A stretch of 64,000 nucleotides of DNA from Archaeoglobus veneficus SNP6 (GTDB taxonomy: Archaea > Halobacteriota > Archaeoglobi > Archaeoglobales > Archaeoglobaceae). This document shows positions 46,561 through 50,937 of this stretch, piece after piece. The notes below the pieces were generated by a model, which was given only the letters and a program-made list of their open reading frames with translations, was not told the DNA's origin and did no database searches. Location: the NCBI RefSeq assembly GCF_000194625.1, contig NC_015320.1, positions 976,612 to 1,040,611 of the forward strand. Direction: 5' to 3'. Every line of letters starts with the position of its first letter. Position 1 is the first letter of the stretch. The translations under genes were made by a program, and so were the position numbers.

Positions 46561-46612
46561 CTGATACTTTGTCACTTAGAGTCAAAGATTCCATGTGTCA
46601 AAGGTGGTTGGT

Positions 46613-47413
46613 GTGAGTGAGATCGGCAAGAGAGTGAGGATAGAGAGGATACTCGACAGAAACAGCGGAAACACGGTAATCGTACCCATGGATCACGGCC
46701 TCTCCATGGGGCCAATAGACGGCATCGTTGACATGCCAAAGACGATCAACGCGGTTGCTGAGGGTGGAGCGAACGCTGTGGTTATACATAAGGGAATCGT
46801 ACCGTTTGGCCACAGAGGTTATGGTAGAGATGTGGGGCTGATCGTGCACATGAGCGGTTCGACGTCGCTGAGTCCTGATCCCAACGAGAAGGTCCTTGTC
46901 TGCACAGTGGAGGAGGCGATAAAGCTTGGAGCAGACGCGGTGAGCGTCCACATAAACATCGGGAGCAAGACTGAGGCGGAACAGCTCGCGAAGCTTGGGG
47001 AAGTTAGCAGAGCCTGCAAGGAATGGGGAATGCCCCTGCTTGCGATGATGTACCCGAGAGGTGATGGCATAAACCAGTTCGACGAGAAAGCTGTTGCTCT
47101 CGCTGCGAGAGCTGGAGCAGAGCTGGGAGCAGACATTGTAAAAACGAACTTCACCGGCAGCGTTGAGTCTTTCAAGCGCGTCACTGCTGGCTGCCCAGTG
47201 CCTGTCGTTGTTGCTGGCGGGCCAAAGATGAAGAGCGAAGAGGACATACTGAAGATGGTAGAGATGGCAATGGAGGGCGGAGCGAGAGGAGTGGCGATAG
47301 GAAGAAACATCTTTCAGGCTGAAGACCCTACTAAGATGACGAAGGCAATTGCGATGATAGTGCACGAGAATGCGAGTGCCAAGGATGCGCTTGAGTTTTT
47401 GAGGAGTGAGTAG
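46613..47413 (+). CDS. 2-amino-3,7-dideoxy-D-threo-hept-6-ulosonate synthase
   Basis: Class I aldolase (DhnA family) that opens the archaeal shikimate route from 6-deoxy-5-ketofructose phosphate and aspartate semialdehyde (MJ0400-type). [24 protein letters not shown], and the Schiff-base Lys in [10 protein letters not shown]. 266 residues from the GTG at 46613, chosen because AAGGTGG lies just before it; the GTG at 46595 would add six residues. A plain class I fructose-bisphosphate aldolase is the alternative reading. Confidence 0.85.
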
Positions 47414-47491
47414 AAGACATCTTTCTGTATTTTGCTTTTCACACTCTTTTTACGTGTTAGCACCTCGTTCTTTATAGGGTGCAACAAAAAA

Positions 47492-48844
47492 TTATGGTGG
47501 AGGCTGTATAAATCCAAGCTCCATCAACATCCTGATTTTCTTCTGTGTTGAGTTTATAATGGACTCTGCCCTCCCGTAGATTTCCTCTCTCGACAGCTTG
47601 AGCCTCGCTACACCCTGCTCAATTGCCTTCAGTGCAGTTGCAGTTGCCACTTCTGGAAAGACTCCTTCGTCAGTCATATGTGGTATAACGTAATCTTCGC
47701 TCAACCCCTTTCTCTCAGCACACTTTACGAGAGCCTTTGCTGCAGCGATGGCCATTTCGTCGGTTATCGTTCTGACCCTCACATCAAGCACCCCTCTGAA
47801 CACAGCGGGGAATACAAGAGAGTTGTTGACCTGATTGGGGAAGTCTGACCTTCCTGTTCCAACAATTCTTGCTCCTGCCTCTTTGGCTTCCCATGGCCAC
47901 ATCTCCGGGATGGGGTTTGCTTCCAGAAAGACAATCGCATCGTCGTTCATTGTTGCTATCCACTCCTTCTTTATAACCCCTGGCCCCGGCTTGCTTGCAG
48001 CTATGAGCACGTCACATCCCTTTATCGCCTCAGCCATTCCACCTGTCCTGCCCTCTCCGTTCGTTTCGAGGCAGTACTTCCACTTGTACGGGTTCTTGTC
48101 CTTCTTTTCTTCGATGTCCTTCCTTCCCGGATGCAGAATGCCTTTGCTGTCAACCACGTACATCTTCTTTGGATCCGCTCCAGCCGCTGTGAGCAGTCTA
48201 ATGGTGGCTATGTTCGCCGCACCAACCCCAATGATGGCAATGTGTACGTCTTCAATCTTCTTTCCAACAACCTTCAGCGCTCCAAGCAATGCTGCTAGTG
48301 TGGCTGTTGCGGTCCCCTGCTGGTCGTCATGCCATACGGGAATATCCAGCTCTTCCCTCAGCCTGTCAAGGATGTAGAAACATTTGGGATTTGAAATGTC
48401 TTCAAGGTTGATTCCACCAAATGATGGTGAAATGGCCTTCACGATCTCTATAAACTTGTCAGGATCTTTTTCATTGAGGACAACAGGAAAAGCATCAACC
48501 CCTCCAAGATACTTGAAAAGCAGAGCCTTACCTTCCATAACCGGCAGTGCCGCAAGTGGTCCGATGTCTCCCAATCCTAAAACTCTCGTACCGTCGCTTA
48601 CAACAGCCACGGTATTCCACTTGTTTGTATAGTCGTAGGCCTTGTCTGGATCCTCTACGATTTCCTCGCATGGCTTTGCAACACCTGGTGTGTACCAGAC
48701 ACTGAAATCATCGAGATTCCTTATAACACACTTCGGAAGAACCTCTATTTTACCACCGTAAAATCGATGCCACTCTGAAGCAACCTTTTCTGGAAGTTTT
48801 GCTTTTTCAATGGGAGTGTCCGTCCTCTTGTCCACTACTTTCAC
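47492..48844 (-). CDS. maeB: Malic enzyme (malate dehydrogenase, decarboxylating)
   Basis: Converts malate to pyruvate and CO2 with NAD(P). 450 residues, short prokaryotic form: VWYTPGVAKPCEEI, GLGDIGPLAALPVMEGKALL, VWHDDQQGTATATLAALL and the nucleotide fold IIGVGAANIAT. On the minus strand TTTATATA (48896-48903) is its TATA box; the leader of about 30 bases carries two near-repeats (AGTGTGCAG, ACTGTGCAG). An IS6-type element sits 18 bases upstream of the TATA box. Confidence 0.94.
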   Translation of the reverse strand: MKVVDKRTDTPIEKAKLPEKVASEWHRFYGGKIEVLPKCVIRNLDDFSVWYTPGVAKPCEEIVEDPDKAYDYTNKWNTVAVVSDGTRVLGLGDIGPLAALPVMEGKALLFKYLGGVDAFPVVLNEKDPDKFIEIVKAISPSFGGINLEDISNPKCFYILDRLREELDIPVWHDDQQGTATATLAALLGALKVVGKKIEDVHIAIIGVGAANIATIRLLTAAGADPKKMYVVDSKGILHPGRKDIEEKKDKNPYKWKYCLETNGEGRTGGMAEAIKGCDVLIAASKPGPGVIKKEWIATMNDDAIVFLEANPIPEMWPWEAKEAGARIVGTGRSDFPNQVNNSLVFPAVFRGVLDVRVRTITDEMAIAAAKALVKCAERKGLSEDYVIPHMTDEGVFPEVATATALKAIEQGVARLKLSREEIYGRAESIINSTQKKIRMLMELGFIQPPP

Positions 48845-48911
48845 CTCTCAGTGTGCAGGCCTCACTGTGCAGCCACTGGGCTACTTAAGCCTTGTTATAT
48901 AAATTTCGGGT

Positions 48912-48920
48912 GTTGGGTTC
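48912..48920. repeat. Target-site duplication, left copy
   Basis: GTTGGGTTC, repeated at 49616-49624 on the other side of the IS element. Depending on where the terminal repeat ends, the duplication is 8 or 9 bases; 8 is normal for IS6. Confidence 0.8.
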
Positions 48921-49615
48921 GGTAGTGTCAAGTTAACACCTCCAGTAGTTGTAGAAGGCCATAAAGCTCTCCAACCAGCTCTGTACAGAGACAAAAGAAC
49001 TCCTGAATGGAAATCTGTTCCAGAACCTCTTCGTTCTCTCTTTAAACCTCGAAAAGAATCCTTCTACAGCATTTCTTCTACCAAACGTTTCATGCCTGTA
49101 TCTCAGCCCTAACCTTTTCAAAGCCCACAGATACCAGAAACCTCTATCAACAACGATCTCTGGCTTGTTTTCGCAATGCTTGAGAACTTCTCTAAGGAAA
49201 ACGTAAGCTTCAAAGCTTCCTCTTCCTCCAGAAGCCCATATAGCTAGGCATTCCATGGTATCAACGTCTATAGCAGCCCAAACAAAGATTTGTTTCTTTT
49301 CCAGTTTTATTTTTGTTTCATCTATCGCAACAAGTCTTCTTTTCTTCTTTTCTGGTTGTTTTAAGACTGTTTTGAGTCTATGGTAGTAAATCCTAACAGA
49401 TTCGTGACTTATTTCTTCGAATAAAGATAGAAAATCACTTGTTTTTCTCAAAGAAAGGCCAAAGAAGTATAATAATGCTGCAAGTATTTTAAGTTCCACA
49501 TCTTTCCTGTTCCTTCGAAAGACTTTTGTAGACTTGACGTAATCTACCAACTGGCTTAGCGCAGGCTGCATAAGTTGTATCTTAGTTATTTATTTTTTGT
49601 TATTTTGACACTGCC
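48921..49615 (-). mobile_element. Complete IS6-family insertion sequence, 695 bp
   Basis: Bounded by imperfect inverted repeats (GGTAGTGTCAAGTTAA left; GGCAGTGTCAAAATAA as reverse complement of the right end; 13 of 16 identical) and flanked by the same 9 bases GTTGGGTTC. It contains one intact transposase gene and nothing else. The perfect duplication and intact frame suggest recent insertion. Confidence 0.88.
48933..49571 (-). CDS. IS6-family DDE transposase
   Basis: 212 residues. Catalytic Asp in AIDETKIKL, second Asp in IVVDRGFWYLWALKRLG, and Glu in NAVEGFFSRFKERTKRF; an N-terminal helix-turn-helix region (LRKTSDFLSLFEEISHESVR). Fills almost the whole element. Slightly shorter than the 220-240 residues common in the family, but nothing essential is missing. 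Confidence 0.92.
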   Translation of the reverse strand: MQPALSQLVDYVKSTKVFRRNRKDVELKILAALLYFFGLSLRKTSDFLSLFEEISHESVRIYYHRLKTVLKQPEKKKRRLVAIDETKIKLEKKQIFVWAAIDVDTMECLAIWASGGRGSFEAYVFLREVLKHCENKPEIVVDRGFWYLWALKRLGLRYRHETFGRRNAVEGFFSRFKERTKRFWNRFPFRSSFVSVQSWLESFMAFYNYWRC

Positions 49616-49624
49616 GTTGGGTTC
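49616..49624. repeat. Target-site duplication, right copy
   Basis: GTTGGGTTC, matching 48912-48920 exactly. Confidence 0.8.
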
Positions 49625-49860
49625 TGGCACCTTAAGAACCAAATATGAAAAGTTTTGGCTTATTCTTTAGGCTTTCTTCAAAAAACACAAAATTCAAAAC
49701 ACATTAAAAAAGCTTTTGCTAATTTGTAGAGCTAAATTCAGATTTAGCCTTACGCAAAAAGCCTGTACTCTTGCGGTTAATAAAACCTTTGGGGTACTAT
49801 CATTCTTTAGGCGCATGAACGATTACGTGTTTGGAAATGGAAGTATTGCCGTAAATATCC

Positions 49861-50688
49861 CTAATATGGCATATTACTTGACCAGAAAGAGTTTTTTTCA
49901 CAGTAAGTCTTTGTTTTTATAGGCCATTTGCCTATCCATTCTTCCCATCCATAAATTCCGTCCTTGTTTTCATCCTCAGGAGGGTAGATTCCAATGGTAT
50001 AATAGCGTACAAACAAATAAGGCTTTGATTTATTAGTATCAAACCACTTTTCTCCAGCATCTGCATCGTAGCAATGTCTTGCGAAAATTACAGCATATGT
50101 AGGTTTGATTTTATTGAAATATTTCAAGACATCTTGGTAAGAAATTTCTTCTCCACAATCTGGATTTCCATGTCCAAGTATACACAAGTAAATCACAGGC
50201 CTTCCTTCATCATTTTTTGTTTCATTGTAAATTTTTTCCATTGCCTTATCGAAAGGTGATTCGTAGTGAGATGGTATTGGATGAATCCATTCTTCGGAAG
50301 GTAGCTCTATGATATTCTTTTCAGGTATTTCCGCTCTATTGAAAAATTCTATTAGCTTTTTTCCATCTTCAACATCGTCAGGATCTGTACCGTAATGAAC
50401 AAGCACATAAATCCTATTGTACTTATCCGGTTGCGGATCATACTTATCCGTGAAATAATCTCCGTCTTTGTTGCTTAAAATAATTTTTTCCTTTTCTGTT
50501 TCATTTTTTCCGGCCATAGCAATATTGTTATATTTTCCGCTACCAGTTTGATCGAAGTATCCTTTTATTGGATAGCCTATACATCCTGCAATTAGCAAAC
50601 CAGCAACAGTTCCTAAAGCGATTAATTTCCATGCATCGGGATGTCTTTCAAACCAAGTTTTTTTCCTGAGTTTTTCATCTTCTGACAT
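49861..50688 (-). CDS. Putative lipoprotein with caspase/legumain-like (clan CD) fold and EF-hand loops
   Basis: 275 residues. A short charged N-terminus is followed by one hydrophobic helix (about 20-36) ending in LLIAGC, a lipobox, so the rest should be outside the cell, tethered by lipid. Core motifs resemble clan CD cysteine peptidases: a strand VIYLCILGHGN with His173-Gly174 and a strand AVIFARHCYDADAG with Cys206, the His-Cys dyad order and spacing of legumain/caspase/gingipain folds. Two calcium-loop-like segments are present: NKDGDYFTDKYD (73-84) and DENKDGIYGWEE (239-250), the latter a canonical EF-hand loop. No neighbour suggests a target. Family assignment is inference from motif order, not from recognised homology. 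Confidence 0.55.
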   Translation of the reverse strand: MSEDEKLRKKTWFERHPDAWKLIALGTVAGLLIAGCIGYPIKGYFDQTGSGKYNNIAMAGKNETEKEKIILSNKDGDYFTDKYDPQPDKYNRIYVLVHYGTDPDDVEDGKKLIEFFNRAEIPEKNIIELPSEEWIHPIPSHYESPFDKAMEKIYNETKNDEGRPVIYLCILGHGNPDCGEEISYQDVLKYFNKIKPTYAVIFARHCYDADAGEKWFDTNKSKPYLFVRYYTIGIYPPEDENKDGIYGWEEWIGKWPIKTKTYCEKNSFWSSNMPY

Positions 50689-50937
50689 TTAGGGAGACAC
50701 CCCTCGAAAGCGCAATACCAACACTATCTTTGGATAATATGGCGAAGTGGTGAAATAATAGTGGAATGATAAAGAATATTCTCATATTAGTTTTTCGTTG
50801 TATCCGGTGAGGATTGGAGCAGGTGCGTTCAGCGGATCGGTGATGATAGGAAGCATTCCGGGCATGAGACGCTGAAGTTTAGCGAAGTTCAGTAAAAAGG
50901 GCAAGGTATCAAACTAATCCGCTGAACTCAAAACCAT
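50689..50937. other. Intergenic region with a degenerate fragment
   Basis: Between the putative protease and purS. A plus-strand stretch RIGAGAFSGSVMIGSIPGM followed by RR and TGA (about 50807-50873) looks like the end of a lost membrane protein; nothing else is recognisable. Confidence 0.3.

Follow-up and report, generated by a model that had tools for sequence, protein, structure and literature searches.

A probable, strongly diverged C13-like clan CD protein with a predicted N-terminal anchor in Archaeoglobus veneficus

We identify an orphan gene at 49861-50688, on the minus strand of a 64,000-nucleotide stretch of Archaeoglobus veneficus SNP6 DNA (the window), whose 275-residue product is probably a compact clan CD protein of C13-like type that has diverged far and, judged by its sequence and predicted structure, would act as an anchored extracellular cysteine peptidase. 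We assign a probability of roughly 0.6 to the full reading, a strongly diverged legumain-like (C13) Cys peptidase that is anchored, extracellular and furnished with a Ca loop, in which the fold is modelled and the activity, Ca2+ binding, topology and role are putative.

Results

The host genome is a single contig of 1,901,943 bases. The frame opens with an ATG at 50688 and stops at 49861, and re-checking of the ORF and its residue numbering confirmed the 275 residues and motifs described in the original prediction. It is a genuine ORF, because 275 codons far exceed the longest stop-free runs obtained in 300 shuffles of the region (mean 83 codons, maximum 182). A Shine-Dalgarno-like sequence, GAGGGGTG (50698-50705, minus strand), lies 9 nt upstream of the ATG. 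The composition of the ORF is foreign, with a GC3 of 0.29 versus 0.57 for window genes.

Acquisition of the gene, suggested beforehand from its position next to an insertion sequence, is supported by its low GC and its absence from relatives, but the insertion sequence itself arrived separately. This IS240/IS6-like element (48921-49615, minus strand; transposase 48933-49571, PF13610 E 2e-10) is complete with terminal repeats and sits between the two copies of a 9-bp target duplication, GTTGGGTTC (48912-48920 and 49616-49624); 11 further genomic copies of its end were found. Because it has its own duplication and these other end copies, the element is read as a later insertion independent of the ORF, and the idea that it brought the gene was rejected. 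In a same-genus genome (G002, locus L163), an aldolase gene homologous to 46595-47413 directly precedes purS. Here the interval between aldolase and purS, 47411-50926, contains a malic enzyme gene, the insertion sequence and the ORF, and this stretch of about 3.5 kb is either extra here or lost in G002. The degenerate fragment reported nearby corresponds to a short minus-strand frame remnant (ending in RLMPGMLPIITDPLNAPAPILTGYNEKLI and a stop) in the spacer at about 50780-50930, which also carries a 14-bp inverted repeat (50824-50837 and 50917-50930); no other copies of this spacer were found in the genome.

The N-terminus of the protein carries a hydrophobic segment (residues 21-40; 50569-50628, minus strand) that could be a signal peptide or a membrane anchor and argues for an anchored, extracellular domain. 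Within it lies the lipobox-like I33-A34-G35-C36 (50581-50592, minus strand), as originally described. It fits the archaeal lipoprotein rule, in which a hydrophobic signal segment leads into [LVI][AST][GA]C, and makes Cys36 a candidate site of lipidation. A lipoprotein is therefore possible, and a simple membrane anchor at the N-terminus is just as likely because the hydrophobic stretch continues beyond Cys36 (CIGYPIKGYF). We see even odds that the lipobox Cys lies by chance inside an ordinary transmembrane helix, leaving the protein signal-anchored instead of lipid-anchored, an outcome compatible with the main reading. The 20-residue n-region with its mixed charges agrees with such a coincidence, as does the known layout of an N-terminal helix joined to a caspase domain (PMC3501461). 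Against it, IAGC obeys the lipobox rule, some euryarchaea have many lipobox proteins, and the non-halophilic ones are predicted to export their lipoproteins via Sec (PMC2945643).

The His-Gly strand end followed by a Cys strand end, in the order of clan CD, was found as predicted. GHG at 172-174 stands behind VIYLCIL and RHC at 204-206 behind YAVIFA, so located that the putative catalytic base, His173 (50170-50172, minus strand), and the putative nucleophile, Cys206 (50071-50073, minus strand), fall just past predicted strands β3 and β4 in the AlphaFold models; Gly174 completes the H173-G174 pair. The two Ca-binding loops that had been proposed proved unequal. The second, DENKDGIYGWEE (residues 239-250; 49939-49974, minus strand), matches the EF-hand consensus exactly. 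The first, NKDGDYFTDKYD (residues 73-84; 50437-50472, minus strand), has acidic residues or Asn at positions 1, 3, 5, 9 and 12, but is only EF/TSP3-like because its Gly stands at position 4 instead of 6. When the mature protein was shuffled 100,000 times, a hydrophobic strand ending in HG and followed, at the clan CD spacing of 25-60 residues, by a hydrophobic strand-xx-C occurred 66 times, and the same pattern with a downstream EF loop never occurred; the pattern was defined after viewing the protein, and these counts are a rough guide.

Sequence searches returned the ORF as an orphan. Neither Pfam, NCBIfam, PHROGs and PADLOC nor a sequence search of the PDB yielded a match, and no homologue was found among 60 relatives, 393 genomes of the phylum and GTDB contigs, or in IMG/VR, phages or plasmids; weak matches in the phylum-genome, phage and plasmid searches were taken as noise. 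A C13-like query run against viral sequences likewise gave no match. A few C13- or C14-type proteins occur in the family's 55 genomes, none of which was retrieved as a relative of the ORF. The large, different Archaeoglobaceae proteins of the L030 type that PF01650 does match were rejected as its relatives. The ORF scores below the curated Pfam cut-offs for PF01650 (Peptidase C13) and PF00656 (Peptidase C14), and no Pfam match to clostripain (C11) or gingipain (C25) was obtained.

For profile comparisons, clan CD domains were gathered from the phylum, with 80 C13-like loci from GTDB genomes, and the single ORF was aligned by HHalign with three profiles, made from archaeal C13 domains, from C14 domains and from 76 C13-like domains. 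Scores were 24.1, 27.0 and 27.0, respectively, against about 14 +/- 2.5 for shuffles, of which 1/200, 0/200 and 0/200 equalled the ORF; the archaeal C13 and 76-member sets have two near-identical members in common and are not fully independent, and the C14 comparison is suggestive only. Against each of the three profiles the ORF ranked first of 122 window ORFs, and in all three alignment paths H173 and C206 fell on the catalytic His and Cys, respectively. A fourth profile, from a methanogen C13 set, was not informative, with 3/60 shuffles equalling the ORF score. HMMER bit scores were about 2 or less, and across four profiles the ORF ranked 1, 5, 8 and 103 of 1001 sequences including shuffles.

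Multiple alignment extended this correspondence. With 44 dyad-bearing relatives in MAFFT, three algorithms placed H173 on the His in 44/44 and C206 on the Cys in 44/44. An initial MAFFT register, which set β1 of the ORF on α1 of the relatives, arose from a common 'RIY' and was dropped; leaving out the relatives with this mismatch gave a consistent register, which served as input for AlphaFold. In this clean register, which covers the ORF from residue 84, β1, α1 and β2 correspond, as do NIIEL/NIYYL, EEISYQDVLKYFNKI/ETLTPSELDGWLDTL and the Cys. DENKDG (239-244) lines up with the DDNGDG of the relatives, providing the DxNGDG-type loop after the Cys that marks the C13-like subset, and the Ca loop at 239-250 is therefore best read, from the alignment, as a family feature of secreted prokaryotic C13-like domains. 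The Cys-x-S-G motif of C13 is absent from the ORF, which has YDADAG after the Cys at positions where 42/44 relatives carry S and 44/44 carry G.

AlphaFold predicts a caspase/haemoglobinase core at residues 90-208 (50065-50421, minus strand) in two runs. The alignment-free run, of low confidence (pLDDT 43.9, pTM 0.47), already gave the order β1-α1-β2-α2-β3-(His173)-α3-β4-(Cys206). The run with 15 C13-like relatives, which is partly circular, raised the core to a pLDDT of about 90 (58 residues >= 90; pTM 0.61) and placed H173 and C206 two residues past β3 and β4, the arrangement of the clan CD dyad. The short C-terminal third is unmodelled. Both models contain the order of β1-β4 and α1-α3, and the first four strands with three helices constitute the minimal caspase/haemoglobinase fold (PMC4357240). 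A model without the caspase fold, the outcome named beforehand as contrary to the original prediction, did not arise.

Fold searches gave caspases or metacaspases among their top matches, none of them significant, as no match in the PDB or viral searches reached E <= 0.001. The top PDB match of the alignment-free model was the yeast metacaspase Yca1 (E 0.016), and the top viral match of the second model was a caspase-domain protein (probability 1.00, TM 0.45). Against the PDB, the second model matched caspase-2 with a TM of 0.41/0.49, among the best TM-scores yet at rank 31; P-loop/Rossmann proteins rank alongside caspases, P-loop and other proteins stand above caspase-2, and KaiC and clamp-loader folds score similarly to caspases. 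The profile alignments, their controls and both AlphaFold runs thus support a caspase/legumain fold with a His173/Cys206 dyad, although no single search is significant alone.

Two further observations concern the C13-like relatives and are separate from the ORF. Large proteins (720-780 aa) from two other Archaeoglobaceae genera (L029, L030, L031, L033 and L067) match the two halves of the 76-member C13-like profile separately and in reversed order, the half with the Cys (profile ~102-186; QCFGGG) lying ~130-200 residues ahead of the half with the His (profile ~10-102; DHG). L030, for example, has the first match at residues 208-302 (E 4.6e-6) and the second at 375-445 (E 2.9e-11), and its only HG lies after the candidate Cys. 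These five are candidates for a circularly permuted clan CD domain. Among the secreted prokaryotic C13-like domains (L083-L161), 27/76, about a third, have the catalytic Cys replaced by Ser or Asn, which suggests that pseudo-enzymes are frequent among them.

Discussion

We propose that the hydrophobic segment at the N-terminus, which may carry a lipid on Cys36, holds outside the cell a domain that would adopt the minimal caspase/haemoglobinase core of β1-β4 and three helices. The nucleophile would be Cys206, at the end of β4, and the general base His173, at the end of β3; if clan CD is a guide, the backbone amides of Gly174 and Cys206 would form the oxyanion hole. The loop at 239-250 may bind Ca2+ and stabilize or activate the short C-terminal part. 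A likely role would be cleavage of surface or extracellular proteins, in processing or scavenging, by the product of a gene probably acquired as an AT-rich single-gene insertion.

Retention of a clan CD fold need not imply a peptidase. The protein could have lost catalysis or never had it, and be a membrane-anchored pseudo-enzyme, a binding protein or the product of a decaying acquired gene, which we regard as unlikely. Catalysis appears often lost in the C13-like set, where both His and Cys are kept in only 44/76 and the Cys column holds Ser in 19 and Asn in 8; the missing post-Cys SG of the ORF, its short C-terminal sub-domain and its status as an orphan gene with no orthologue under visible selection point the same way. 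However, His173, Cys206 and Gly174 are retained despite divergence nearly everywhere else, and the frame is uninterrupted and preceded by a good Shine-Dalgarno-like site.

The fold itself might also be misread. An orphan membrane protein of unrelated α/β (Rossmann-like) fold, with HG, C and an EF-type loop brought together by chance, would account for the lack of a significant database or fold match, for KaiC and clamp-loader folds that score like caspases and for HMMER scores near noise. Such a coincidence would nevertheless have to bring three profile comparisons together on H173 and C206, produce the clan CD element order in a model built without an alignment and generate a dyad and EF-loop order that no shuffle reproduced, and we consider it quite unlikely. 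We find it similarly improbable that the protein represents a new clan CD family that reached this hyperthermophilic archaeon from an unsampled source, possibly a virus or plasmid. It would then be a stand-alone lipid-anchored extracellular peptidase pared down almost to the four-strand caspase/haemoglobinase core, without the usual C-terminal β5-β6 part and the post-Cys SG.

If the reading as a diverged clan CD peptidase is right, caspase/legumain-type peptidases extend to small anchored proteins missed by every standard family model, which suggests that further such orphans lie among 'hypothetical' archaeal surface genes. The protein would also provide a clan CD enzyme of very small size, probably stable to heat, with which to ask how much of the fold catalysis requires.

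Clostripain (C11) and gingipain (C25) are Ca-dependent secreted clan CD peptidases. They were rejected as closest relatives of the ORF, given no Pfam match and their absence from the fold matches listed. Comparison with prokaryotic C13-like (PF01650-type) secreted domains is closer. These domains, which carry a DDNGDG loop and include L084 from Methanophagales and L059 and L062 from Halobacteriota, resemble the ORF in its predicted order β1-α1-β2-α2-β3-HG-α3-β4-C, in an acidic Ca-type loop after the Cys and in a probable extracellular placement. Unlike them, the ORF, at 13-21% identity, has no SG after the Cys and a far shorter stretch from Cys to loop, and it is a small, single-domain anchored protein that matches no Pfam model. 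The same archaeal family also contains a large secreted C13-like protein (L028, genome G030) with an HG/DACHSG dyad and a DPDLNGDGLVSFYEAW loop at the place equivalent to the ORF loop. L028 differs from the ORF in its length of at least 1165 aa, its multidomain build and its complete catalytic motif, and it was not found as a relative in a pairwise search with the ORF as query.

Prokaryotic metacaspases and orthocaspases (C14B, PF00656) have the HG and C dyad in the same order and a known architecture with a single N-terminal helix (46 sequences, PMC3501461), and Yca1 is the top PDB fold match; by contrast, the ORF has no C14 match and no DCCxSG, and its Ca loop is placed as in the C13-like domains. 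We do not file the ORF as a C13 or C14 member, because it fails the Pfam cut-offs and has no post-Cys SG, though the dyad and loop agree with those of the group; if functional, it would work as such a member does. The original prediction regarded a lipid-anchored archaeal version as new. It is less new than supposed, since prokaryotic caspase homologues with a membrane anchor have been described (PMC3501461) and a secreted C13-like protein occurs in the same archaeal family. An anchored caspase-type protein is thus not a new kind, and the ORF is probably an unusual, far-diverged member of a known prokaryotic protease group.
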